Below are positions 51,549 to 62,935 of a stretch of 64,000 bases of DNA, one piece after another. Numbering within the stretch: the stretch's first letter is position 1; each line of letters opens with the position of its first letter. The notes under the pieces are model-generated. The model had not been told where the DNA came from and searched no databases. It worked only from the letters and a program-made list of their open reading frames with translations. This DNA is from Parvularcula sp. BBD 1991-13. Its GTDB lineage: Bacteria > Pseudomonadota > Alphaproteobacteria > Caulobacterales > Parvularculaceae. A program made the position numbers and the translations under genes. The DNA lies in the NCBI GenBank assembly GCA_001657385.1, contig LYSZ01000011.1, forward strand, positions 45,776 to 109,775, in the 5' to 3' direction.

Positions 51549-52826
51549 ATGATGAGCCCTGCGCGAATCCTTCTCGTGGACGACGACCCGATCATGCTGG
51601 AGCTGGCTTCGACGCGGCTTCGCGAGGCGGGGTACGACGTCAACGCCTGCGCCGACGGCGTTCGCGCCCTGGTGGCGCTGGAGCGGGACGGGGCGGATCT
51701 CGTCATTTCCGATATCGACATGCCGATCCTGAACGGGTTCGAACTGACGAAGATCATTCGCGCTCATCCCCGCCTGAGCGAAAAGCCGGTCATCGTCATC
51801 ACCTCCAGCGATGGCGGCGAGGCGGTGGACGAGGCGTTCGCCGCCGGCGCCACGTCGTTCCTCTCCAAGCCGATCAACTGGTCGTTGTTCAACCACTCGG
51901 TGCGCTTTGTCCTGCGCGCCAGCGAGACCCAGCGCGCCCTGCGCGAGGCGCGCGACCGGGCCGAGGCGGGGGACCGTTTCAAGGACAATCTCATGTCCGT
52001 GATGAGCCATGAGTTGCGCACGCCCCTGAACGCCATCATCGGCTTCGGACAGCTCGTCGCCGCCCATTTCGACAAGCAGGACGACACGGTCAATAAAGAG
52101 TATACGGATTATATTCTCGAAAGCGGAAAGCGGTTGCTGAATTCTGTATCCGACATGTTGCTTGCGTCGGAGGCGCGCACCGGCTCGATCGCCATCAGCG
52201 AGACGAGCGCAACCGTCGAGGAAATCGTCGCGGACGCGCTTGCGTCCCTTGAAAAGTCCATCGCCATTTCCGGCGCGAAGATCTCGGTCAAGCTGCAGAA
52301 CCCGCGCCAGGAGGTCCGCTGCGACCAGGCGCTCCTGTCCCGGGCGATCGGGAAGCTGGTCGACAATTCGATCAAGTTCGGCCGGCGCGGCGTTCGCGTC
52401 TTGATCGCCTCGGCGCTGACCCCCGCCGGCGACCTGGCGCTGCTGGTCAAGGACGACGGGCCCGGCGTGCCGCGCGACAAGGTTGACGAGTTCAAGGCGA
52501 TGTTCGCCCAGTCGGACATGTCAATCAGCCGCTCGAAGGAGGGGCTGGGCCTCGGCATTCCCCTGACTCAGGCGATCGCCCAGGCCCACGGCGCCGCTTT
52601 CCGGCTGAGTTCGCGGGGCGACGGAGCCGCCGAAGATGTCGGTGCGGACGGATGCGAAAAGGCGCGCGCGCAAGGCGGCACGGAATGCGTCGTCGTCCTC
52701 CCCGCGGCCCGCCTTCGTCCCCTGGCGGCGGACATGGCCGCGCCCGGCGACGGCGCATCTTCCGACGATCCGGGGCGCGCTGCCCCGGAGGCGGCGACAC
52801 CTGGGCCGGCTCGGCGCACGGCCTGA
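51549..52826 (+). CDS. Response regulator-histidine kinase hybrid
   Basis: A soluble 425-residue protein with the inverted order receiver first, kinase second. The receiver has its acceptor at Asp55 (LVISDIDMPILNGFEL) and Lys in FLSKPINW. A short helix leads to HisKA with His154 (VMSHELRTPLNAIIGF) and an ATPase domain with N-box DNSIKFG, DDGPGVP and GLGLGIPLTQAIAQAHG. No membrane segment is present. The 90-residue C-terminal tail is Ala/Arg/Pro-rich and looks disordered. It is divergent from the BarA-like kinase, with about 130 bp between the genes, so the two probably form a multi-step relay in which this receiver takes phosphate from the other's HPt domain. Confidence 0.88.
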   Translation: MMSPARILLVDDDPIMLELASTRLREAGYDVNACADGVRALVALERDGADLVISDIDMPILNGFELTKIIRAHPRLSEKPVIVITSSDGGEAVDEAFAAGATSFLSKPINWSLFNHSVRFVLRASETQRALREARDRAEAGDRFKDNLMSVMSHELRTPLNAIIGFGQLVAAHFDKQDDTVNKEYTDYILESGKRLLNSVSDMLLASEARTGSIAISETSATVEEIVADALASLEKSIAISGAKISVKLQNPRQEVRCDQALLSRAIGKLVDNSIKFGRRGVRVLIASALTPAGDLALLVKDDGPGVPRDKVDEFKAMFAQSDMSISRSKEGLGLGIPLTQAIAQAHGAAFRLSSRGDGAAEDVGADGCEKARAQGGTECVVVLPAARLRPLAADMAAPGDGASSDDPGRAAPEAATPGPARRTA

Positions 52827-53018: not shown

Positions 53019-53270
53019 TTACAAATACCGGCGACGCATGTAGTAGCTCAAGTTCTGCCGTTGCATCTCCTCGATGTAAGTAGTATCTGCGCGGTCTTTA
53101 TCGCTCATACGTCCACTTTCATCAGCTTGCTGCTGATTGGCGTCTTGCGTTTCCGCATTAAACAATCCCGTGTTATCCAATGGCGGACCGGCCAGGAACA
53201 TAAGAAAGCTTCGTATCCATTTTGCGACGCCCCGTTCTCCGTGCGTGTCATGATTGGCGACTGGTTTCAT
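53019..53270 (-). CDS. Small hypothetical protein at the end of the peptide-modification operon
   Basis: An 83-residue protein of unknown family, starting at 53270 with GAGGAGCG upstream. It has a hydrophobic stretch (WIRSFLMFLAGPPL, residues 17-30), a Gln/Asp-rich middle and a basic aromatic C-terminus (YYMRRRYL). It follows the aminoacyl-tRNA-synthetase-like gene on the same strand by about 50 bp. It could be a second peptide substrate, an immunity or transport helper, or unrelated; nothing in the sequence decides this. Confidence 0.55.
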   Translation of the reverse strand: MKPVANHDTHGERGVAKWIRSFLMFLAGPPLDNTGLFNAETQDANQQQADESGRMSDKDRADTTYIEEMQRQNLSYYMRRRYL

Positions 53271-53316
53271 GCTGCGGCGCTCCTCGGAAAAATACCTTGA
53301 ATCTAAAAAGACGTTT

Positions 53317-54303
53317 CTACGATGGCCTCTCATATTCACTTAAAAACTCAGGCGACAAAGCAAACCCTTGAATAGTCGTTAAACCCAGGCAGACCGCGCA
53401 TAATCTTTCAAGGCCGATGGCGCCCCCCGCGCTGTGACGGGGCGCTTGGCCAGATTCGACAAGTTCGCGTATGATATCGTCTTCAGGCCCGTAGTGACCG
53501 TAAACCTTCGCACGCTCCACGAAACCGCGCACATCAGGGTCATCCTCATAAAGATGAACGACTTCGACGCCCTGGATCTGAAACTCAACCCGGTCTGCGA
53601 CGGCAATGGTCCCGTGCTTTGGTTTTGCTCGCGCTTCCGCTGCATATGGAAACTCGGAAACGATCAGACATTTGTTAAGCGATAACGGTTCGACTTCTTC
53701 AGAAATCCAACGATCCAGCATGGGAAAGAGTTTTTCGTCAGGGCTCCCGTATGCTTCCGCCAATTTGGCGTGTAGCGCAGTCATGCTGTCCGGGTCTTTG
53801 AATAAGTCGACGCCGAAATCGGTTCTAAGTTTTTGGGCTACTGACAGCCTTTCCACAGGCCCGTCGAACACGATTGCGACAATCTCCCTGAACAAGTCGA
53901 CGATTTCCGTAAGCGATGCGTCGCGAATATAAATGTCGAGCATATGGAATTGCTGGAGATGGGTGTCATCGATACGGTCCGGACGGAAACACTGTCCAAC
54001 AGAGAAGACTTTGTCATGCCGACCCAACTGTCGACGCAGCGCCAAAGCAGGGGAGTCCTGCAAGTAACGGCCGTCCAATAGTGGAATACGGGGAATGACG
54101 TCGCAGCTGTCATGAGCGCGAATCACCGGGGTTGAAAATTCGATGAAGCCTTTGTCCCAAAGATGCAGGCGCATGGCTTGTATCGTTTCAGCGAGCATCA
54201 GGAGGGGATCGTCGCGCAACATTGAAAGGCGTTTTTCATCGAAACGCGGCGCGTTCGAGAACTGCGTCATCGAAGCGCTGATCTTGGGCGGTGAAAGATT
54301 CAT
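53317..54303 (-). CDS. Stand-alone class II aminoacyl-tRNA synthetase-like protein
   Basis: A 328-residue catalytic core of a class II synthetase without anticodon-binding or editing domains. Motif 1 is in LWDKGFIEFSTPVI (Pro59), motif 2 reads KVFSVGQCFRPDRIDDTHLQQFHMLD (about 98-123, with the ATP-binding Arg107), and motif 3 is GGAIGLERL (293-301, with Arg300). The motif 2 loop resembles PheRS/PylRS-type or EpmA-type sequences, so the amino acid cannot be assigned. Relatives such as EpmA attach an amino acid to a protein instead of tRNA. Here, in an operon with a repetitive peptide, it may activate an amino acid or a peptide carboxylate; this is inference. The start at 54303 (MNLSPPK) is chosen on the adjacent AAGGCAG; the frame extends to 54414. 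Confidence 0.8.
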   Translation of the reverse strand: MNLSPPKISASMTQFSNAPRFDEKRLSMLRDDPLLMLAETIQAMRLHLWDKGFIEFSTPVIRAHDSCDVIPRIPLLDGRYLQDSPALALRRQLGRHDKVFSVGQCFRPDRIDDTHLQQFHMLDIYIRDASLTEIVDLFREIVAIVFDGPVERLSVAQKLRTDFGVDLFKDPDSMTALHAKLAEAYGSPDEKLFPMLDRWISEEVEPLSLNKCLIVSEFPYAAEARAKPKHGTIAVADRVEFQIQGVEVVHLYEDDPDVRGFVERAKVYGHYGPEDDIIRELVESGQAPRHSAGGAIGLERLCAVCLGLTTIQGFALSPEFLSEYERPS

Positions 54304-54439
54304 TGTTCTGCCTTTTTGATCAAGAATGACTCGTCGCCGCGTTTGAACGCATGTGCGCTTCATCGCTCTTTTCCTGCGATCAACGGCAACGATAAGGGCG
54401 CTGAAGATCGCCAATCATTGCAAGCATTGCCCGTAAAAA

Positions 54440-54898
54440 TTATGACGCCGCGGTGTGCTTTTCCTCAAGCCGCGAGTCGTTTGTTGCGCTTTTTTGCTTG
54501 CGTGGTCCGGTAACGTCGACTATAGGCCGCCACCATTTCGGCCGGAAAGACTTGTAGCTATGCTGAACGTCCGGCGCGATCAGGTTTGGCCGGTCCAGGC
54601 TCCCTATGACGATGGATATGTTGTCATATCCATCGTCAATGGCGCATATGGCGCTGCCGCATTTCGGGCAATTGCCGCGGCGGGTCTTTTCCGAAGACCG
54701 GTACAAGGCGGGCGTTCCGCCGGGCCCGGTCCACGAGAAGTCATCAAGCGGAAATTCAACCCACGCCACCGTGGGCGCGCCGCTCCAGCGGCGGCACATT
54801 TTGCAAGAGCAAAGATGAGGAAAGATCGGATCTGCGGTCACGGTGTAGCGTATCTCGCCGCACAGGCATCCTCCCTCATAAGTTTTCGGTTTCGCCAT
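54440..54898 (-). CDS. GFA/CENP-V family zinc-binding protein
   Basis: A 152-residue protein of the glutathione-dependent formaldehyde-activating (GFA) family. Zinc-ligand cysteines are plain: GGCLCGEIRY, then HLCSCKMCRRWSGAP, then GNCPKCGSAIC. The family carries out thiol-dependent lyase or activation reactions on small electrophiles; a related role in trapping formaldehyde or another aldehyde released by the oxygenases is possible but speculative. The start at 54898 (MAKPKTYEGG) lies 11 bases after the previous gene's stop, so the two are co-transcribed; the open frame reaches 54970 inside that gene. The C-terminal 25 residues are charged and variable. Confidence 0.88.
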   Translation of the reverse strand: MAKPKTYEGGCLCGEIRYTVTADPIFPHLCSCKMCRRWSGAPTVAWVEFPLDDFSWTGPGGTPALYRSSEKTRRGNCPKCGSAICAIDDGYDNISIVIGSLDRPNLIAPDVQHSYKSFRPKWWRPIVDVTGPRKQKSATNDSRLEEKHTAAS

Positions 54899-54909
54899 GA
54901 ATAAGTGTC

Positions 54910-55770
54910 CTATGCAACTTTTGCGTCGGAACGACGTTCCTTTTGTATCAATGAAGTAATCTCTATCCATTGATCAGAAAACGGATAAAGCATTTGCAGG
55001 AAACCGTCTATGATTTGAGGTTGCAGAAAGTGAAAGGTATCCGCGTCTTTTATGAAACGCGCGATGCCTTCTTGATGGCCCTGTTCCACAGCAACGCCGT
55101 CGGTCGCCGCGTCATGGCTTTCGTCAAGGTGCATCCGATAATAGAAATCGAGGTTTTCGAGACTTTCATTGGAGCCTTTTCCGAGCAGGTGTCCGAGGCG
55201 GTTTGTGATGTCGCGCATTTGTTCCGTTTCGGAAATCGCGACCGCCTCGGTGGCGTAGTACATGCCGAGAATAGTCGATGGACAATGCGACCAGGCCAAA
55301 ATGTCTATGATCGAGGACAGGGCGAGCGTGGTCATGGTTCGCGGCGTCCAGCCATTGACGCGGAAATCGAGGTCCTTGGCCAGCGCGCCGCTGAAGATGA
55401 CATAATGCGCCGGCAGCTTTCCCCGCTCGCCGCCCTCTTCAAGGTAGTTGCGCGTCAGTTCCTGCGCGAGTTCCGGACTGTACCCCCGCATGGTGTCCGC
55501 CGCTCTCAGCAGCAGCGTCGAATTATAGCGCGCGAAGACGGAAATTTCGCCGATGTAATAGCGCGCTTCGTCCGCGGAGAGGTTCGTTGCGTCGACCGTT
55601 TTCGCAATTCGTTCGTAAATCCACAAAACCATTGGGTCAAAGTGATTTTCGACCAGTTCCCGGCCGGAGACGAGTGCTTTTCCCTCTCCGATTGTAGCGT
55701 TGAAAAGGGACGACGTTTCGGGGTGCTGTTCGAAAAACGCATCAACGAGACTATCAAATGAACGGTACAT
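54910..55770 (-). CDS. Heme-oxygenase-like diiron oxidase candidate (HDO/CADD-like)
   Basis: A 286-residue all-helical protein matching the iron-containing redox enzyme/HDO superfamily. Candidate metal ligands follow the family order: Glu in RNYLEEGGERGKLPAHY (about 111-112) with His122, Glu175 in YYATEAVAIS, and His214 and His219 in FYYRMHLDESHDA with Asp216 or Glu217 nearby. HDO enzymes use two irons and oxygen for N-oxygenation, C-C cleavage, desaturation or self-sacrificing chemistry. It is 23 bases behind the JmjC-like gene, thus in the same operon. The substrate could be the repetitive peptide or a free amino acid; not determinable. Confidence in the fold is good, in the reaction low. 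Confidence 0.75.
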   Translation of the reverse strand: MYRSFDSLVDAFFEQHPETSSLFNATIGEGKALVSGRELVENHFDPMVLWIYERIAKTVDATNLSADEARYYIGEISVFARYNSTLLLRAADTMRGYSPELAQELTRNYLEEGGERGKLPAHYVIFSGALAKDLDFRVNGWTPRTMTTLALSSIIDILAWSHCPSTILGMYYATEAVAISETEQMRDITNRLGHLLGKGSNESLENLDFYYRMHLDESHDAATDGVAVEQGHQEGIARFIKDADTFHFLQPQIIDGFLQMLYPFSDQWIEITSLIQKERRSDAKVA

Positions 55771-55793
55771 AAGGCAGGCCCTCTTTCTAAGGA

Positions 55794-57056
55794 TTAAATT
55801 CGCTCAAGCGCGCCGGTGCGGGACAGTTCCTGCAGAAACGCGATTTCGGCATGCGTTGCCGCGGCGACCGGTTCATGGCGGCCCAGCTGGCCGCAAATCC
55901 TTTCGACATCGACATCCTGCGCATCGGCAACGACGCTGCGGGCCGCCAGGAAAACGCGCGTTTGCGTCGCGGCGCAGTCAAGATCGGGCTCGACGATCGG
56001 CGCGTATGGCTTGAGAAGGCGCACGCTCTGTCCAGGCGACAGATCGAAAGCCGGCGCATTGTTGCAGTCAGCGAACATGTCCGCAGCCAGGCGTTGCGGC
56101 AAATCCCATCCGCCGTTGCTTCGCAAGCGATTCCAGTAATAGGACAGAAAGCGCGGCAACTCGCGCGTGAACCATTGATCGCAGGTTGAGTGCAGGAGAT
56201 CCGTAATCGGCGCCGCAAAAGGATTTTTACCGTTGAGCGGAAGGAACGGCGACATGCCCTCCTGATCGAACGGCAGCGAGAGATCGCAAAGCGCCGGCAG
56301 TACGGCGCGCGACACAAAGCGCGTGTAAGGATAAGTGTATAGCGGCAACGCGACCGAGACCGAATACTCGTTCTGTCGACCGATGTGATAGACCGCCGCC
56401 GGAAGGTAAAGCACGTCGCCGGGCTTCAGCACAAAAAGCTCGGCGTTGTCGAACAGCCGGTCAAAGGCCGGCGCATTGGAAAATGTCGGCTCTCTTCCGT
56501 CCGCGATGCTGAGATAAGCCTCGCGAGACCAGCAGTAAAAGTTTTTTACGCCTGGACCCAGATGGCAAAGAAGCGCGTGCTCAAAACCTTCGTGAACGCC
56601 AAAGGCCGTACCGGAATAATTGCCGCAAAAGACGGCCTGCTCCGTGCCGCCGATCGGAAATCCGCGCGCCGAGAAGAACGATTGGGCAAAATCGCTGAAG
56701 TCCGCGGCGAGGCGTGCGCTCGCCTGTTCGAGATTGTTCAGCACAAGACTAAAGCGCGGCGCGCCGGTGTACTCCTGCATGAATTCAACAAGGCCGCCGG
56801 CATTTCGCGGGGTTTGTGCATAAAGCTCTTCGACGAGGTCGTCGCGCCGGTCTTCCCCTACATAGATGCGGGCGCGACAGTCGGTTTCGGCGCGGCGTTG
56901 TTCATCGAACAAGGAAAAAAACGCTTTTTCGACTTCGCGAAATCCAGCAAAGCCGTCGCTTAACGGCAAGACGCCCTCAAACAGATAGGGCGCAATGCCG
57001 TCCTTCGTCTGATCATCGAAATCACCCCATATATCTGAAGAAAATGTGAAGGACAT
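55794..57056 (-). CDS. JmjC/cupin-like protein, probable Fe(II)-dependent peptide oxygenase
   Basis: A 420-residue protein whose central part (about 95-240) resembles cupin_8/JmjC oxygenases: GTAFGVHEGFEHALLCHLGPGVKNFYCW and then LKPGDVLYLPAAVYHIG. The first metal His would be His155 and the distal one His224. At the usual HxD/E position the sequence is His155-Glu156-Gly157, so the acidic ligand appears replaced by Gly, with Glu156 and Glu159 adjacent. In 2-oxoglutarate enzymes a Gly or Ala there is the mark of halogenases, but an alternative ligand is possible. The C-terminal 170 residues have no recognised domain and could bind the peptide. It is the first enzyme after the precursor-like gene, separated from it by a hairpin. 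Confidence 0.75.
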   Translation of the reverse strand: MSFTFSSDIWGDFDDQTKDGIAPYLFEGVLPLSDGFAGFREVEKAFFSLFDEQRRAETDCRARIYVGEDRRDDLVEELYAQTPRNAGGLVEFMQEYTGAPRFSLVLNNLEQASARLAADFSDFAQSFFSARGFPIGGTEQAVFCGNYSGTAFGVHEGFEHALLCHLGPGVKNFYCWSREAYLSIADGREPTFSNAPAFDRLFDNAELFVLKPGDVLYLPAAVYHIGRQNEYSVSVALPLYTYPYTRFVSRAVLPALCDLSLPFDQEGMSPFLPLNGKNPFAAPITDLLHSTCDQWFTRELPRFLSYYWNRLRSNGGWDLPQRLAADMFADCNNAPAFDLSPGQSVRLLKPYAPIVEPDLDCAATQTRVFLAARSVVADAQDVDVERICGQLGRHEPVAAATHAEIAFLQELSRTGALERI

Positions 57057-57111
57057 GCTTTTCAGCCTTTTTGCCGTTCGTTAACGGACTGTATCTGCGG
57101 GCCTGCGGATT

Positions 57112-57142
57112 GAGGCGAGCGGATCGAAGATCCGCCCGCCTC
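57112..57142 (-). promoter_or_regulatory. RNA hairpin between the precursor-like gene and the first enzyme
   Basis: On the minus strand GAGGCGGGCGGATC pairs with GATCCGCTCGCCTC around a TTC loop, a 14-bp stem with one G-T pair. It begins 15 bases after the precursor stop and has no T-tract. Such a hairpin would slow transcription or protect the short upstream message, giving far more peptide than enzyme. Confidence 0.7.
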
Positions 57143-57156
57143 GCATCTTGCCGAGC

Positions 57157-57279
57157 TTAGGCGTCGGGACGAACACCGGCTTTCAGATCAGCATCCGGAC
57201 GGATGCCGGCTTTCAGAGCGTCCGGGCGGATGCCGGCTTTAAGAACGGCGTCGGGGCGGATTCCAGACTTCAGGCTCAT
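57157..57279 (-). CDS. Repetitive 40-residue peptide, candidate RiPP precursor
   Basis: The frame ATG 57279 to TAA 57157 has an ideal ribosome-binding site (AAAGGAG, seven bases before ATG). After Met-Ser the whole product consists of four near-identical 9-residue units: LKSGIRPDA (3-11), LKAGIRPDA (13-21 and 22-30) and LKAGVRPDA (32-40), with single residues Val12 and Asp31 between some of them. Codons vary between units (GAC/GAT, CGC/CGT, ATC/GTT), so the protein repeat, not the DNA, seems to be kept. There is no leader peptide, Cys, Ser or Thr-rich core, or double-Gly site. It lies at the head of an operon of oxygenase-like and ligase-like genes. It is inferred to be the modified substrate; Lys, Arg, Pro and Asp of each unit are the candidate sites. 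Confidence 0.78.
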   Translation of the reverse strand: MSLKSGIRPDAVLKAGIRPDALKAGIRPDADLKAGVRPDA

Positions 57280-57656
57280 TCTCGTCTCCTTTGTGATAGC
57301 TGTGACTGTGATAAGAAGGGCGGCTTACACGCCTTTCGTGCGCCGCGTTATCTACCTAGCTTATCGATTAATCTTTACAATGAATATTTTTCGAAAATCT
57401 TGTCGATCAGTAGGGGGAGAAAAAATTTTGTCGAGAATAAAAAAATACTTGACTGTAATTGTTTTGGTTTTGCGTTTCTCAATTAAATCAATCCTGATGA
57501 TAGTTTTTTGCAATTGATTTTCGCGTCCGACACTCCCTTATGATAGGCGGGCGTTATCGTCTTAAGCCGTATGCAAATAATTATTCATGCCGCGGATTTC
57601 ATAAAATCGACGTGCTTGCGACTTTGATCCATTTCTCCGTTAAAAAGGAACGCAGA
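57280..57656. other. Divergent promoter region of the peptide-modification locus
   Basis: No further gene is seen. The DNA is strikingly AT-rich from about 57360 to 57520 compared with its surroundings, as expected for two divergent promoters, one for the precursor operon and one for the decarboxylase operon. Open frames on the plus strand across the repeats are mirror images of the precursor and were rejected. Confidence 0.6.
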
Positions 57657-58865
57657 ATGACGTTACTGTTTCCGAGCGCTTTTTCGCGCGTTGCAGACGT
57701 TGTCAAGGAAAGTCCCGCCGAGCCCGTGCTTTGCTTCGATCCCAGCCGCGTTCGCGAAAATGTCGATACGTTTCTGGCCGGCTTTCCAGGCGCCGTATCG
57801 TGGGCGATCAAGTCTAACCCCCATCCCGAAGTCGTGCGCGCCGTTGCGATGGCCGGGATCAACGCATTTGACGTTTCGTCTCGCGGCGAAATCGAACAGT
57901 TAAGATACCAGCATCCATGGGCCAAGCTCTACTTTAACCACCCGATAAAATCGCCTGAAGACATCGCTTACGCCTATGCGGCGGCCGGCGTCCGCGATTT
58001 TGCCGTCGATCATCCCGGCGAGATTGAGAAAGTTCATGAAAGCCTCAAAAAAGCGGGCGCCGATAAAATCGCCGACGTTACGCTGATGGTGCGCTTTAGA
58101 GATCCGTCTTATCGTGGAAATGTCAACTACGATTTTGGCAGCAAGTTCGGCGCGGCGCCGGATCTCGCCGCGGAGATGTTAAGGGATTGCGAGCGCAGGG
58201 GGTTTTCCCTCGGGCTGAGTTTCAACCCCGGATCGCAGGAACGCGATCCGAACGTCTACGCTCGGCTCATGCGGCTTGCGCGGAAAGTCGCCGCGCGCGC
58301 GGGCGAGGGCGTTCCGCAACGGATCGCCAAGCTCAGCGTCGGCGGCGGTTTCCCCTGCCGTTATCCGAATGGCGGAGAGCCTGCGTTGCAGCGCTACTTC
58401 GAAGCGGTCTCGGACGCGTCAGATTTTGGCGATTGTCTGGTTTATTGCGAGCCGGGCCGGTCGATCGTCGCGGACAGCGTTAGCGTGGTCGCCAAAATCA
58501 TGCTTGTAAAGCCGGAAAGCGGGCTTCTTTATCTGAATGATGGTTTCTACGGCTCGTTCATGGAGTCGAAGTTTGTCGACTTTAGCCCGCCGGTGCGGGC
58601 TTACACCCCCCGCGGCGCCGAGATAAAAGCCGACAGTGAAGGCGCCGCGCTCTACACGATCATGGGGCCCACATGCGACAGCATCGACCAGTTGCCGAAA
58701 CAGGTCAGGCTGCCAAAAATCCTGAAAACCGGCGACTATCTGGAGTTCGGCATGATGGGCGCGTATTCGAACGCAACGGCGACGCAGTTCAACGGGTTTG
58801 CGCGCGCGCGACTGGCGCTTGTGGACAGCATTGCGCCATGGGGGAGCGCTTCCTATGCACAGTGA
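57657..58865 (+). CDS. PLP-dependent decarboxylase of the ornithine/lysine/DAP fold III family
   Basis: A 402-residue alanine-racemase-fold decarboxylase. The PLP lysine is Lys52 (SWAIKSNPHPEVV), the phosphate-binding Gly motif is LSVGGGFPCRY, CEPGRSIVADS contacts PLP, and GPTCDSIDQL carries the Cys-Asp pair typical of ornithine/lysine decarboxylases rather than diaminopimelate decarboxylases. It would yield putrescine, cadaverine or a related amine, or act on a modified residue. The start at 57657 follows AAAAAGGAACGCAG; the frame open from 57540 was not used. It overlaps the next gene and is divergent from the precursor operon. In this setting the amine could be a peptide conjugate, an idea that is not proven. 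Confidence 0.85.
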   Translation: MTLLFPSAFSRVADVVKESPAEPVLCFDPSRVRENVDTFLAGFPGAVSWAIKSNPHPEVVRAVAMAGINAFDVSSRGEIEQLRYQHPWAKLYFNHPIKSPEDIAYAYAAAGVRDFAVDHPGEIEKVHESLKKAGADKIADVTLMVRFRDPSYRGNVNYDFGSKFGAAPDLAAEMLRDCERRGFSLGLSFNPGSQERDPNVYARLMRLARKVAARAGEGVPQRIAKLSVGGGFPCRYPNGGEPALQRYFEAVSDASDFGDCLVYCEPGRSIVADSVSVVAKIMLVKPESGLLYLNDGFYGSFMESKFVDFSPPVRAYTPRGAEIKADSEGAALYTIMGPTCDSIDQLPKQVRLPKILKTGDYLEFGMMGAYSNATATQFNGFARARLALVDSIAPWGSASYAQ

Positions 58866-59829
58866 GCGCGAAGGCTCGATAGCGCAGACAACTCGGCCGG
58901 AACCGAGCGGCGGCGGACCGCGTGCAAGTAATCCCGAACAGGCCGCCCGCGCGCTGGTCCATTATTCCTATGCGATTTTGCATATGCCGGACGATGTTTT
59001 CAGCCACGCCTACAACATTCTCGACGCAGGGCGGCGTTTCTTCGAACAGCCCCTGGAGGTTAAAACGCAGCGCCGAAGCGCGGCGGACGATCTGGAGGGG
59101 TATCGCAGCTTCGGTGAAGAACTCGATCCGGAAACCGGGCTTGAAGATCTTTCCGAAGGTTTTGCCGTCTGGCGTCGAAATCAACATAGCGAGGATGTGC
59201 GCCGATGGGCGAGATCCTGCGAATTGCACGGGCTGATGAGCAATGCGCTCGATGCATATGCGACTCTTGCAGAGGACATTCTCTCGGCGTTGCGTCGCGA
59301 GGTCGCCCAAGAGGACGGCGGCGCCGCTGCTGGCGATATCAACATTCGGGCCCTGTCCTATCTACAGCAAAACTACTATCGCCCCGCGGACCATGCCGGC
59401 GACGGGCGCGCGAATGTCATGGAGCCTCATGAAGACGGCCATGTGCTGACAATTCTGAAACCTACCGCGCCCGGGCTGGCGGTTAGTCCGCGCGAACTCA
59501 TTGAGCCGCCAACGCCTGAAAATCGACTTGGCGTTTACGGCCCGCCCACGGGCTACCTGGATATTGACCTCGGGCCGAGGGAGGCCATTGTGATCCCAAG
59601 CACGCCCACGGCCTTGTTAACGGGCGGCCTCGTCAAGCCTTTATGGCATGGCGTGCGGAACACCGGAAGCAAGCGCCGTCAGTCTCTTATGTTTTTTGTT
59701 AATCCGGACCCCGCCTTTAGCTGCAGGCCGTGGGTCCGCAACAGAATTTTTGCAAAATACGATATTCACGAAATCATAGACATAATGTCTTCAAATTACG
59801 GGAAAACATCTATTTCACAAGTGATGTGA
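58855..59829 (+). CDS. 2-oxoglutarate/Fe(II) oxygenase (isopenicillin N synthase-like)
   Basis: A 324-residue jelly-roll oxygenase of the isopenicillin N synthase/2OG family. The iron triad is intact: His192 and Asp194 in VMEPHEDGHVLTI and His265 in PLWHGVRNT; the 2-oxoglutarate- or substrate-carboxylate-binding Arg lies about ten residues later (SKRRQSLMFF). It would hydroxylate, desaturate or cyclise a small molecule or peptide. The ATG at 58855 lies inside the end of the decarboxylase gene, so the two are translationally coupled and probably act in sequence, for example on the same amino acid or amine. It is followed by the MATE exporter. Confidence 0.87.
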   Translation: MHSEREGSIAQTTRPEPSGGGPRASNPEQAARALVHYSYAILHMPDDVFSHAYNILDAGRRFFEQPLEVKTQRRSAADDLEGYRSFGEELDPETGLEDLSEGFAVWRRNQHSEDVRRWARSCELHGLMSNALDAYATLAEDILSALRREVAQEDGGAAAGDINIRALSYLQQNYYRPADHAGDGRANVMEPHEDGHVLTILKPTAPGLAVSPRELIEPPTPENRLGVYGPPTGYLDIDLGPREAIVIPSTPTALLTGGLVKPLWHGVRNTGSKRRQSLMFFVNPDPAFSCRPWVRNRIFAKYDIHEIIDIMSSNYGKTSISQVM

Positions 59830-59896
59830 AAGTGATAATTTCGAAAGTTCTTTTCATGGGAGCGCCTTGAAAGGGCGAGCTTCGGCCAGGGCGGGC

Positions 59897-61294
59897 ATGT
59901 TGATCCAGAAACGAAAAAGCGACTGGTCGTCCGAGTTTTCGGGGCTGCTGTTGATCGGTATTCCGATTGTTTTAACGCAACTGGTGCAATTTTCGGTCAA
60001 CACGATTGACATTATCATGATCGGCCGGTTGGGGCCGGAAGCCCTGGCGGCTTCCACGCTCGGCTTTGTGCTGTACTTGTCGGTCTGGTTGTTTGCGTGC
60101 GGACCTGCAATGGCGGTCTCGCCGATGGTTTCGCATGCTGTCGGGGCGGGCGGCGATCCCCGTGACGACGTTCGCGTTTCGGTTCGGATGGGATTGTGGG
60201 CGGTCGCCATGCTCTTCCCGGCCGCATTGGCGCTTTTTCTGATAACGGACAAGGTCGCCCTTGCTCTCGGCCAGCCAGAGGTTTTGGCCGCGTCTGCGCG
60301 AAATTATGTTCTGGCCCTGGCCTTCGGTTTGCCCTTTTCGCTCGGCATTCTCGTGCTGCGGAATTTCCTCGCCGCCCTCGAAAAAATGCGTGTTCCTTTG
60401 TTGATCGTCATCGTCACAACGATTCTGAATGCGCTCCTCAATTACATGTTGATTTACGGCAATTTCGGCATGCCTCGGCTTGAATTGATCGGGGCGGGCG
60501 TCGCGTCCTCGCTATCCCACCTCATCGGCTTCCTCGCATTGGCGGCTTACGTCGCGCTGGACAGGGAAGCGAAGTCGTATCGTATCTTTTCCGGCTTGCT
60601 GAAACCGGACTGGCCGCGGCTGCGTGAGGTTTTCGGTCTTGGCGCGCCGATCGGCGCCGACGTCGCTTTTGAGGCGATGCTGTTCAACGCCGCTGTATTT
60701 CTCATGGGGCGGATTGGCGTTCTTGAGGTTGCGGCCTATCAGGTTGCCTTCAATGTCGCGCAAATCGCTTACATGATCGCCGTCGGCCTGGCCATGGCGG
60801 GGGCGGTGCGCGTTGGGCTTGCGGCCGGCGCGGGCGATATCGATCGTATCCGCCGCGCATCGGCGTTGACGATTGGCGTGTGTACAATCTCGGTGCTGGC
60901 CGTCGCCGGCCCCGCTCTCTTTGCGCCGGTTTTTGTCGCGTCCCTGTATCTCGAAAGCGACAAGGCTGCGAACGCGGCGCTGTTCGACCTGGTCGTTGTA
61001 TTCCTTCCCATTGCGGGCGCGTTTGCGCTGTTTGACGCCGTGCAGATGGGCGCTAATCAGTGTCTGCGAGGTTTGAAGGACGTGCGTATACCAATGGTTT
61101 TGACGGGCGTCAGTTACTGGGTAATCGGTTTCCCGCTTGCCGCCTGGTTCGGGCTGTTTACGTCAATGGGCGCCATGGGCGTCTGGCTTGGGCTTTTCTG
61201 CGGCGTCGCCGCGGACGCCGCGTTGCAAAGCAGCAGGTTATGGCGCCTAACGCGCCGCCCGATAGCTGCGACGAAGCAGGAAGTTTTCAGCTGA
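59897..61294 (+). CDS. MATE family efflux transporter
   Basis: A cation-coupled multidrug and toxin extrusion transporter of about 465 residues with twelve membrane helices in two halves. Recognisable parts are GIPIVLTQLVQFSVNTIDIIMIGRLGPEALAA at the first helices and QMGANQCLRGLKDVRIPM in the second half. The start is given at 59897 (MLIQKRKSD) with AGGGCGG upstream; a TTG at 59867 with GGGAG only four bases away would add ten residues. It follows the oxygenase by about 70 bp on the same strand. It may export the product of this locus, as MATE proteins do in other natural-product clusters. Confidence 0.92.
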   Translation: MLIQKRKSDWSSEFSGLLLIGIPIVLTQLVQFSVNTIDIIMIGRLGPEALAASTLGFVLYLSVWLFACGPAMAVSPMVSHAVGAGGDPRDDVRVSVRMGLWAVAMLFPAALALFLITDKVALALGQPEVLAASARNYVLALAFGLPFSLGILVLRNFLAALEKMRVPLLIVIVTTILNALLNYMLIYGNFGMPRLELIGAGVASSLSHLIGFLALAAYVALDREAKSYRIFSGLLKPDWPRLREVFGLGAPIGADVAFEAMLFNAAVFLMGRIGVLEVAAYQVAFNVAQIAYMIAVGLAMAGAVRVGLAAGAGDIDRIRRASALTIGVCTISVLAVAGPALFAPVFVASLYLESDKAANAALFDLVVVFLPIAGAFALFDAVQMGANQCLRGLKDVRIPMVLTGVSYWVIGFPLAAWFGLFTSMGAMGVWLGLFCGVAADAALQSSRLWRLTRRPIAATKQEVFS

Positions 61295-61768: not shown

Positions 61769-62935
61769 ATGAAAAAAATTTTCAGGGCTGGCGTCCTTTA
61801 TACGATCGGCGAAGGCGTTCAAGAGACGTCCCCTCGGGAGGGGGGCGCGACCTCGGCCTTGCCGGCGAGGTTCGTGCTGGCCGCGCTGTTGTTCGCCTTG
61901 CCGCCTTTTGCAAATGCGCACGCCTCCCCGTTCGACGGGTTGTCGACGCCGTCATTGATGTCTCCCTGGTTCTTTGCGCTTTGTGCTGCGTTCGCCGTCT
62001 TGGTGCTGTTCTTGATTGGGTTGATCGCATCGCCCGGAAGCCGCAAGGCGCAGACCCATGAGGCCGAATTCTGGGAGCCGAGCGTTGAGTACGCCCACAA
62101 TCGGCCGGTTGAAAAAACCGCGGCGGAAAGAGTTGTCGAAGAAAAAGGCCGTGTTGCGCAGTTTCGTGGTCAAGCCTCGGGCGAAGTTTACAACGATTCC
62201 GGCAATGGCCTCATCGCGCCGGACATGGTCGTCATTCCATCCGGGCGTTTTATCATGGGATCGCCTCCCGACGAAGAGGGCCGGAATGCGTTTTCAGAAG
62301 GCGAGCAGCGAGAAGTCGTCATATCCAAGCCTTTTGCGGTGTCGCGCTACCTCATCACTTTTGAGGAGTATGACGCTTTTTGCTGGGATCGTCGGTGGGC
62401 GACGTGTGGCGACGAAGGCTGGGGCCGCGGCGCAATGCCGATCATCAATGTTTCCTGGATCGATGCCCTGGAGTATGTGAAATGGCTAAGCGCGAAAACC
62501 GGGAAGATGTATCGTTTACTGAGCGAAACGGAATGGGAGTATTGCTGTCGCGCCGGATCGCAGACCGTGTTTGCTTTTGGGGATACGATCAATACTGACC
62601 AGGCTAACTATAACGGCGGTTATGTTTATGGCGATGGGCGCAAGGGAGAGTATCGCGGACAGACGACGCCTGTTTACGCCTTTCCTCCGAACGCGTTCGG
62701 TCTTCATGACATGCACGGCAATGTCTGGGAATGGGTGGAAGACGTCTGGAGCGAAGGCTACGCCGGCGCGCCGAACGACGAGACGCCGGCGTTAAGAGGC
62801 GACACGGAGCGTCGCGTGTTGCGCGGCGGGTCGTGGTACAGTTTGCCGGTGTTTCTGAGATCCGCGAACCGTGTTCGATATGTACGTGATTTTCGCGATG
62901 ATGATATTGGGTTCCGGGTTGCCTGCACGTTGTAG
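61769..62935 (+). CDS. Membrane-anchored SUMF1/formylglycine-generating-enzyme-like protein
   Basis: A 388-residue protein with two hydrophobic segments (about 33-50 and 66-88), a Glu/Arg-rich linker and a C-terminal FGE-sulfatase domain. Domain hallmarks are MVVIPSGRFIMGSPPDEEGR, VSRYLITFEEYDAFC, INVSWIDALEYVKWLSAKTGKMYRLLSETEWEYCCRAG, DMHGNVWEWVEDVW and RVLRGGSWYS. Members generate formylglycine, catalyse C-S or N-oxidative steps, or are non-catalytic ligand-binding modules. No sulfatase lies nearby. The copper-binding cysteines of true FGEs are not clearly present, so a non-FGE role is likely. It is divergent from the DUF1902-like gene and may or may not belong to the peptide locus. Confidence 0.85.
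   Translation: MKKIFRAGVLYTIGEGVQETSPREGGATSALPARFVLAALLFALPPFANAHASPFDGLSTPSLMSPWFFALCAAFAVLVLFLIGLIASPGSRKAQTHEAEFWEPSVEYAHNRPVEKTAAERVVEEKGRVAQFRGQASGEVYNDSGNGLIAPDMVVIPSGRFIMGSPPDEEGRNAFSEGEQREVVISKPFAVSRYLITFEEYDAFCWDRRWATCGDEGWGRGAMPIINVSWIDALEYVKWLSAKTGKMYRLLSETEWEYCCRAGSQTVFAFGDTINTDQANYNGGYVYGDGRKGEYRGQTTPVYAFPPNAFGLHDMHGNVWEWVEDVWSEGYAGAPNDETPALRGDTERRVLRGGSWYSLPVFLRSANRVRYVRDFRDDDIGFRVACTL

Follow-up and report, generated by a model that had tools for sequence, protein, structure and literature searches.

A leaderless repeat peptide and its oxidative enzymes very likely form a RiPP gene cluster shared by distant bacteria

The locus at 53019..61294 of the 64,000-nucleotide stretch of Parvularcula DNA analysed here (the window) is very likely a RiPP gene cluster, and it is shared by distantly related bacteria of several phyla, in which it is also plasmid-borne. 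The cluster likely makes an undescribed natural product, possibly a DNA-damaging one. We assign a probability of roughly 0.5 to the complete scheme that we favor, in which lysines of a repeat peptide are oxidised and aminoacylated, the peptide is cleaved, and a DNA-reactive product leaves through a MATE exporter. The preliminary description had noted two divergent operons at this site, and this observation is confirmed on stronger evidence than was first claimed.

Results

The leftward operon starts with the precursor gene (57157..57279, minus strand; 40 aa), identified by its tandem repeat and by homologous precursors. The peptide consists of four near-identical LKxG(I/V)RPDA units without a leader, the lysine of the first unit being residue 4, and no Pfam or NCBIfam model matches it. 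An AT-rich intergenic region (57280..57656), evident from the ORF map and the sequence, separates the divergent operons and presumably contains both promoters. A precursor gene beside modifying enzymes, the arrangement by which RiPP loci are recognised, is present here and in the relatives. We compared 24 loci, namely that of the window and those of Xenorhabdus, Streptomyces, Nocardia, Nostoc and one further genome; among 24 plasmid records that matched JmjC, 11 were examined. Precursor and HDO accompany the JmjC-fold protein in 23 of the 24, the adjoining peptides having 4-10 units of the same formula; these and later co-occurrence counts are conditional, because JmjC, precursor or HDO served as the entry point to each locus, and they are not independent, several Streptomyces plasmids being close kin.

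Arginine is conserved in 154 of 156 precursor units counted across loci, a count made without L006, P0131 and P0134, the latter two left out as unlike. The L006 precursor contains two units with a K-to-Q replacement. Aspartate can be ruled out as an obligatory target because L047 and L049 carry RPG in every unit (4/4), and the idea that the ligase is an AsnA-like activator of aspartate was dropped on the same grounds. Three weak Nocardia precursor matches (E 8.8e-5 to 5.8e-4), with no cluster genes nearby, were counted as chance, and matches of a relaxed repeat pattern to GC-rich frames were discounted by eye.

Next to the precursor lies a gene for a 420-aa protein (55794..57056, minus strand) whose family match, fold and motifs identify a JmjC-fold Fe/2OG-type enzyme. 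It had first been read as a JmjC/cupin-like oxygenase, which holds for the JmjC fold but not for the usual iron carboxylate ligand: the protein carries H155-x-G157 ... H224, with G157 replacing the Asp of the RoxA-type HxD...H facial triad. The ribosomal-protein arginine hydroxylase RoxA/YcfD has the same fold and motif order but keeps HxD. Among the matches listed (120 homologues, of 131), HxG occurs in 120/120 (recognised by pattern in 110 and by eye in 10), the presumed 2OG-site lysine K171 is kept in 120/120, and the distal histidine was found by pattern in 114/120. Replacement of the HxD carboxylate by Gly or Ala with retention of the 2OG site is the hallmark of Fe/2OG halogenases, and the window protein displays it. 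The lost carboxylate is, however, also a feature of AspH, and the available text of one report describes such two-His enzymes as able to hydroxylate (PMC6817910). Cupin relatives from Pantoea (27% identity) belong to a different cluster, with an adjoining arginase gene and no annotated HDO, and the JmjC gene of L046 stands alone, without precursor or HDO; both were set aside.

The candidate diiron HDO (54910..55770, minus strand) has the heme-oxygenase-like fold of its group. Residues E75, E112, H122 and E175 are invariant among its homologues and align with E, E, H and E of BesC, which we take to be diiron ligands; ligands of the last helix were not located. Its best characterised matches are BesC by sequence (weak) and HrmI by fold, both of which act on lysine. 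Within the window's class the HDO is present in 1 of 385 genomes, the window's own, and the system is rare and patchy in distribution. A reverse search of 626 genomes anchored on the HDO gave four strong matches and one distant match. The whole cluster accompanies all four strong matches (three already known, one new); the distant HDO, in G1768 (E 1.7e-16), has no cluster genes around it and was not accepted as a member.

The formaldehyde-activating-enzyme (GFA) family protein (54440..54895, minus strand; 151 aa with the ATG at 54895 as start; 72.7 bits) is present in 21 of the 24 loci, truncated in two of them, and the class II ligase that follows (53317..54303, minus strand; 328 aa) in 22. 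In Nostoc carneum, precursor, JmjC and HDO are kept and no EpmA-like ligase was found. The preliminary assignment of a class II synthetase-like ligase can be refined, since family match and alignment indicate a class II catalytic core lacking the anticodon-binding domain, as in EpmA, with which the protein can be aligned throughout. The lysine-binding residues of EpmA are not kept: the Glu of SPE/APE, which presumably binds the alpha-amino group, is lost, and NGF(H/S)E, presumably the lysine side-chain pocket, is replaced by H(G/L)Y.(D/E). The enzyme is therefore EpmA-like, not EpmA. Behind it is a small ORF (53019..53339, minus strand; 106 aa from a GTG, with an in-frame ATG at about 53270) without a match in the family-model scan.

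The rightward operon encodes a fold III PLP decarboxylase (57657..58865, plus strand), assigned by family match and by its nearest solved relatives, lysine/ornithine decarboxylases; a 2OG/Fe(II) oxygenase (58855..59829, plus strand), assigned by family match and a relative in Nostoc commune HK-02; and a MATE-family exporter (59897..61294, plus strand; family match). Both arms of the cluster are present on the Nostoc commune plasmid, where the decarboxylase has a 43% identical counterpart and the oxygenase is 42% identical to the last gene. Of the 24 loci, only those of the window and of that plasmid have this decarboxylase/2OG arm, and the search of the other compared loci gave no MATE relative. 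All eight families had been proposed as one unit; the core of JmjC, HDO, GFA and ligase stands, whereas the decarboxylase/2OG arm is accessory. Rather than lying mostly apart in relatives, the core genes are found together in the compared loci, and the HDO-anchored search agrees. Cluster genes also occur on plasmids, and codon use diverges among the loci.

Accessory operons vary among taxa. Actinobacterial clusters contain genes with amidinotransferase and arginine-deiminase family annotations, although no Pfam model matched the annotated amidinotransferase. Of 18 actinobacterial clusters, 15 have an AlkC gene, and one of the two Nostoc clusters has the 3-methyladenine DNA glycosylase Tag; the window has no such DNA glycosylase.

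Discussion

No description of this cluster was found in the full-text literature searched, which excludes most subscription papers, and no paper there contains the precursor repeat strings. The preliminary claim that no known RiPP class corresponds stands insofar as no described cluster was found, but thiovarsolin, which combines repeats with an HDO, is a partial precedent. In the available text on the VarA/VarO system of Streptomyces varsoviensis (PMC6511847), imperfect repeats of variable copy number likewise accompany a heme-oxygenase-like enzyme and an amidinotransferase, the latter dispensable, and short peptides are released without a specific protease. In contrast to the present system, that pathway requires YcaO/TfuA, makes thioamides and uses an APR repeat with a predicted leader, and the same text names no JmjC, GFA, EpmA-like ligase or AlkC (PMC6511847). 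No YcaO and TfuA pair occurs among the ten window proteins scanned. For the biphenomycin RiPPs, the portion of the source at hand describes a JmjC protein (BipG) that hydroxylates a RiPP residue, but those clusters hold MNIO, radical SAM and arginase genes (PMC12707348), none of which was seen among the window cluster proteins scanned. If our reading is correct, leaderless tandem repeats with a core of JmjC (HxG), HDO, GFA and EpmA-like enzymes would define a new RiPP family that spans distant phyla and is carried on plasmids.

We infer a path from oxidation through conjugation to export. The JmjC-fold enzyme and the HDO would oxidise the repeat lysines, and the EpmA-like ligase would then add an amino acid. 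Proteases of the cell would release short units from the repeats, and the MATE protein would export a product that is likely DNA-reactive. The decarboxylase and 2OG oxygenase of the window may provide the amino acid to be added or modify it. The EpmA-like enzyme probably joins an aminoacyl group to the repeat unit, and we somewhat favor lysine over arginine as the oxidised residue. Chlorination rather than hydroxylation by the two-His JmjC enzyme is a tentative proposal, toward which we lean a little less than not; this natural enzyme makes the boundary between hydroxylase and halogenase testable in a new fold family. BesD, which acts on free L-Lys, is not known to have the JmjC/RoxA-type fold, and the likeness of the HDO to BesC is weak by sequence. 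The beta-ethynylserine pathway offers an analogy, as the accessible parts of two reports describe lysine chemistry by an Fe/2OG enzyme without the carboxylate ligand (BesD) followed by an HDO (BesC), and BesC-like release of formaldehyde would explain the GFA protein (PMC10187165, PMC13108848). That the HDO would similarly break up the modified side chain or close it into a ring, with GFA taking up the formaldehyde, seems possible but unlikely.

Alternatively, the chemistry could be directed at arginine as in thiovarsolin, with dehydrogenation by the HDO, hydroxylation of the GxRP arginine by the JmjC enzyme, and release of short arginine peptides by peptidases. The nearest JmjC fold is that of the L16 arginine hydroxylase, RoxA is an arginine hydroxylase, and the near-invariant repeat arginine and the annotated arginine-related genes of actinobacterial clusters fit this route. 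The lysine-directed matches of the HDO, the EpmA-like ligase and the lysine/ornithine-type decarboxylase argue against it, and we consider it rather improbable. To the same degree we doubt a route to a DNA-methylating compound in which the HDO N-hydroxylates lysine like HrmI, the ligase acylates the hydroxylamine and a JmjC/cupin-fold enzyme promotes or tailors an N-N or N-O group. HrmI, a lysine N6-oxygenase, offers the model, although its substrate is free lysine in a non-ribosomal pathway; the JmjC protein is RoxA-type, with its 2OG-site lysine universal among the matches listed, rather than a small cupin, and the conserved GFA protein would have no role.

A reusable carrier, on which the ligase loads a free amino acid onto lysine for maturation by the oxygenases and release, is quite unlikely. 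The product name of epmA denotes the joining of an amino acid to a protein lysine, the many near-identical sites of a leaderless peptide would suit loading, and accessory operons varying by taxon would suit building-block suppliers, but the Nostoc carneum locus, where no EpmA-like ligase was found, speaks against it. Chance or drift joining a repeat protein to housekeeping oxygenases would accord with the generic small ORF and MATE gene, but is very improbable given the conserved company across several phyla and on plasmids, despite divergent codon use, and the HDO-anchored search contradicts it as well.

Under our preferred reading of oxidised and aminoacylated lysine repeats, the glycosylases of the relatives bear on the product: because AlkC/Tag genes lie beside related clusters, their presence suggests that it may alkylate DNA. 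We regard it as an even question whether the finished compound does so, with AlkC/Tag serving self-resistance. A far more specific version, in which JmjC-chlorinated lysines would yield an HDO-made electrophile and AlkC and Tag would have been recruited separately as protection, we hold to be improbable. According to the text available (PMC9040887), self-resistance glycosylases of the AlkZ/YtkR2 type occur inside genotoxin clusters, as glycosylases do in the relatives here, although these are AlkC and Tag and are confined to relatives of the window. The AlkC and Tag genes would predict a genotoxic ribosomal product. The KxGxRP precursor motif can serve directly as a query in genome mining. Two lists of homologues, one of them for the HDO (119 entries), have at least 31 source-sequence lengths in common, which is suggestive only. 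A polyamine link in Xenorhabdus was dropped, the speD/speE-like genes near L005 being, as judged by eye, presumably the ordinary yacC-speE-speD neighbourhood.

Results and Discussion

The existence of the repeat-peptide cluster as a real, conserved RiPP family is well supported, and no description of it was found within the searches made, so that the earlier claim that it fits no known RiPP class stands as far as these searches go. The two opposed gene sets of the preliminary description are present in the window. The minus strand carries a 40-residue precursor peptide (MSLKSGIRPDAVLKAGIRPDALKAGIRPDADLKAGVRPDA, 57157-57279), a JmjC-type protein, a DUF3865-group heme-oxygenase-like diiron oxidase (HDO), a GFA protein, an EpmA-like ligase and a small ORF, and the plus strand a fold III decarboxylase, a 2OG oxygenase and a MATE exporter. 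The precursor's repeat array is the top-scoring tandem repeat of the window (score 106). Just right of the cluster, the ORF at 61769-62935 resembles, by eye, formylglycine-generating (SUMF1-type) proteins.

Scanning the JmjC alignment against 84,980 species genomes yielded nine loci, and plasmid and genome searches added more (11 of 24 plasmid records were examined for comparison). The resulting 24 loci include the window and exclude duplicates, although several Streptomyces plasmids are closely related and thus not independent. The core genes, which might have occurred apart in relatives, stay together in these loci: precursor and HDO are each present in 23 of 24 loci (exception L046), and the ligase in 22 (missing in L012 and L046, encoded as two fragments in L040). 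GFA is present in 21, counting truncated genes in L014 and L043. GFA was not found in L008, L046 or L010, whose contig stops just behind the ligase. In L014 and L043, two Streptomyces plasmids, the shortened GFA gene lies behind HDO and adjoins integrase genes. Another Streptomyces plasmid has a JmjC gene (L046:7950-9293; 76% relative to the cluster type) and neither HDO nor precursor; close by are genes whose annotations read adenylation-domain and ketosynthase-like.

The cluster is a rare, patchy system. The precursor profile gave 6 convincing matches among 128 Nocardia genomes (three further weak ones were judged chance). Among 119 genomes of the family to which Xenorhabdus budapestensis belongs it matched one, the search centre itself. 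The JmjC profile matched 4 of 295 Streptomyces, one being the search centre, and in the class that includes Xenorhabdus a single genome of 369, again the search centre. HDO was found in 1 of 385 genomes of the window's own class, namely its own, and in 3/394 and 2/232 of two further classes, search centres included; the four strong matches there all accompany the cluster (three already known, G1374 new), and the fifth, distant match in these 394 and 232 genomes has no cluster beside it. Several copies sit on Streptomyces and Nostoc plasmids, and the cluster is probably mobile. A Pantoea plasmid cluster (L015:7754-13114), distantly related through its counterpart of JmjC, comprises an arginase-family protein, two cupin proteins and an MFS exporter.

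The window copy looks acquired. Seven regions, out of 17 same-genus genomes found, were compared, and in 7/7 the gene order agrees with the window as far as the gene that ends at 52826; none of the window genes to its right (ORFs of at least 100 aa) occurs in the 8-11 kb beyond in these seven regions. Window GC is 0.54-0.59 from 52 kb to the end versus 0.58-0.70 before.

On a Nostoc commune HK-02 plasmid, a single run comprises precursor, JmjC, HDO, GFA, an LVIVD-repeat protein, ligase, decarboxylase and a DIOX_N-type oxygenase, the last two 43% and 42% identical to their counterparts in the window's right operon. The window's two operons are probably two arms of one pathway. Of the eight families initially proposed as a set, the core recurs across relatives, and the decarboxylase/2OG arm recurs in Nostoc commune HK-02. 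The fuller actinobacterial clusters carry another second arm: desaturase, amidinotransferase (so annotated, without a Pfam hit), arginine-deiminase family, TauD, cation/proton antiporter and nitroreductase. Behind the Xenorhabdus clusters (L005:5007-6605 and L004:5567-7165), a LysE-type exporter is fused to a solute-binding-protein domain; this unusual combination may serve these clusters as their exporter. A Nostoc carneum variant (L013:11118-15642) has a class I glutamine amidotransferase-like protein and an adenylation-carrier-reductase protein, with no EpmA-like ligase.

A HEAT-repeat protein encoded beside 15 of 18 actinobacterial clusters (exceptions L008, L010 and L040) is the alkylpurine DNA glycosylase AlkC (profile E 2.6e-82 to 5vi0). 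In Streptomyces plasmids its gene comes right after ligase and TauD and shares their strand. A gene for the 3-methyladenine glycosylase Tag lies 48 bases behind the cluster of Nostoc carneum. Neither AlkC nor Tag occurs in the loci of the window, Xenorhabdus and Nostoc commune. Self-resistance by DNA glycosylases is known in other genotoxin clusters, according to passages of PMC9040887. That two different enzymes with like specificity adjoin one pathway suggests self-resistance against a DNA-alkylating product.

The cluster ligase can be aligned with EpmA over the whole core and retains the residues of motifs 2 and 3, but lacks the amino-acid pocket of EpmA and LysU. The amino acid that it activates is likely not plain lysine. 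Lys-directed halogenation or oxidation of the precursor would be the foremost chemistry, with a correspondingly putative product, and both a hydrazine-type and an Arg-directed route are serious rivals to it. A relaxed count over 34 precursors and 156 units, picked by likeness and leaving out L006 with its two K-to-Q units, gave K in 153, R and P each in 154 and D in 144. Precursors carry 4 to 10 units. K-x-G-x-R-P stays constant across units whose third-codon-position GC ranges from 0.14 (Nostoc) to 1.00 (Streptomyces), which shows selection at the peptide level. In several Streptomyces precursors (L014, L039, L042), units alternate between KAG-like and KLG types, as if encoding two products, and metagenomic precursors P0121, P0122 and P0125 each hold a single degenerate Arg-rich unit amid normal ones.
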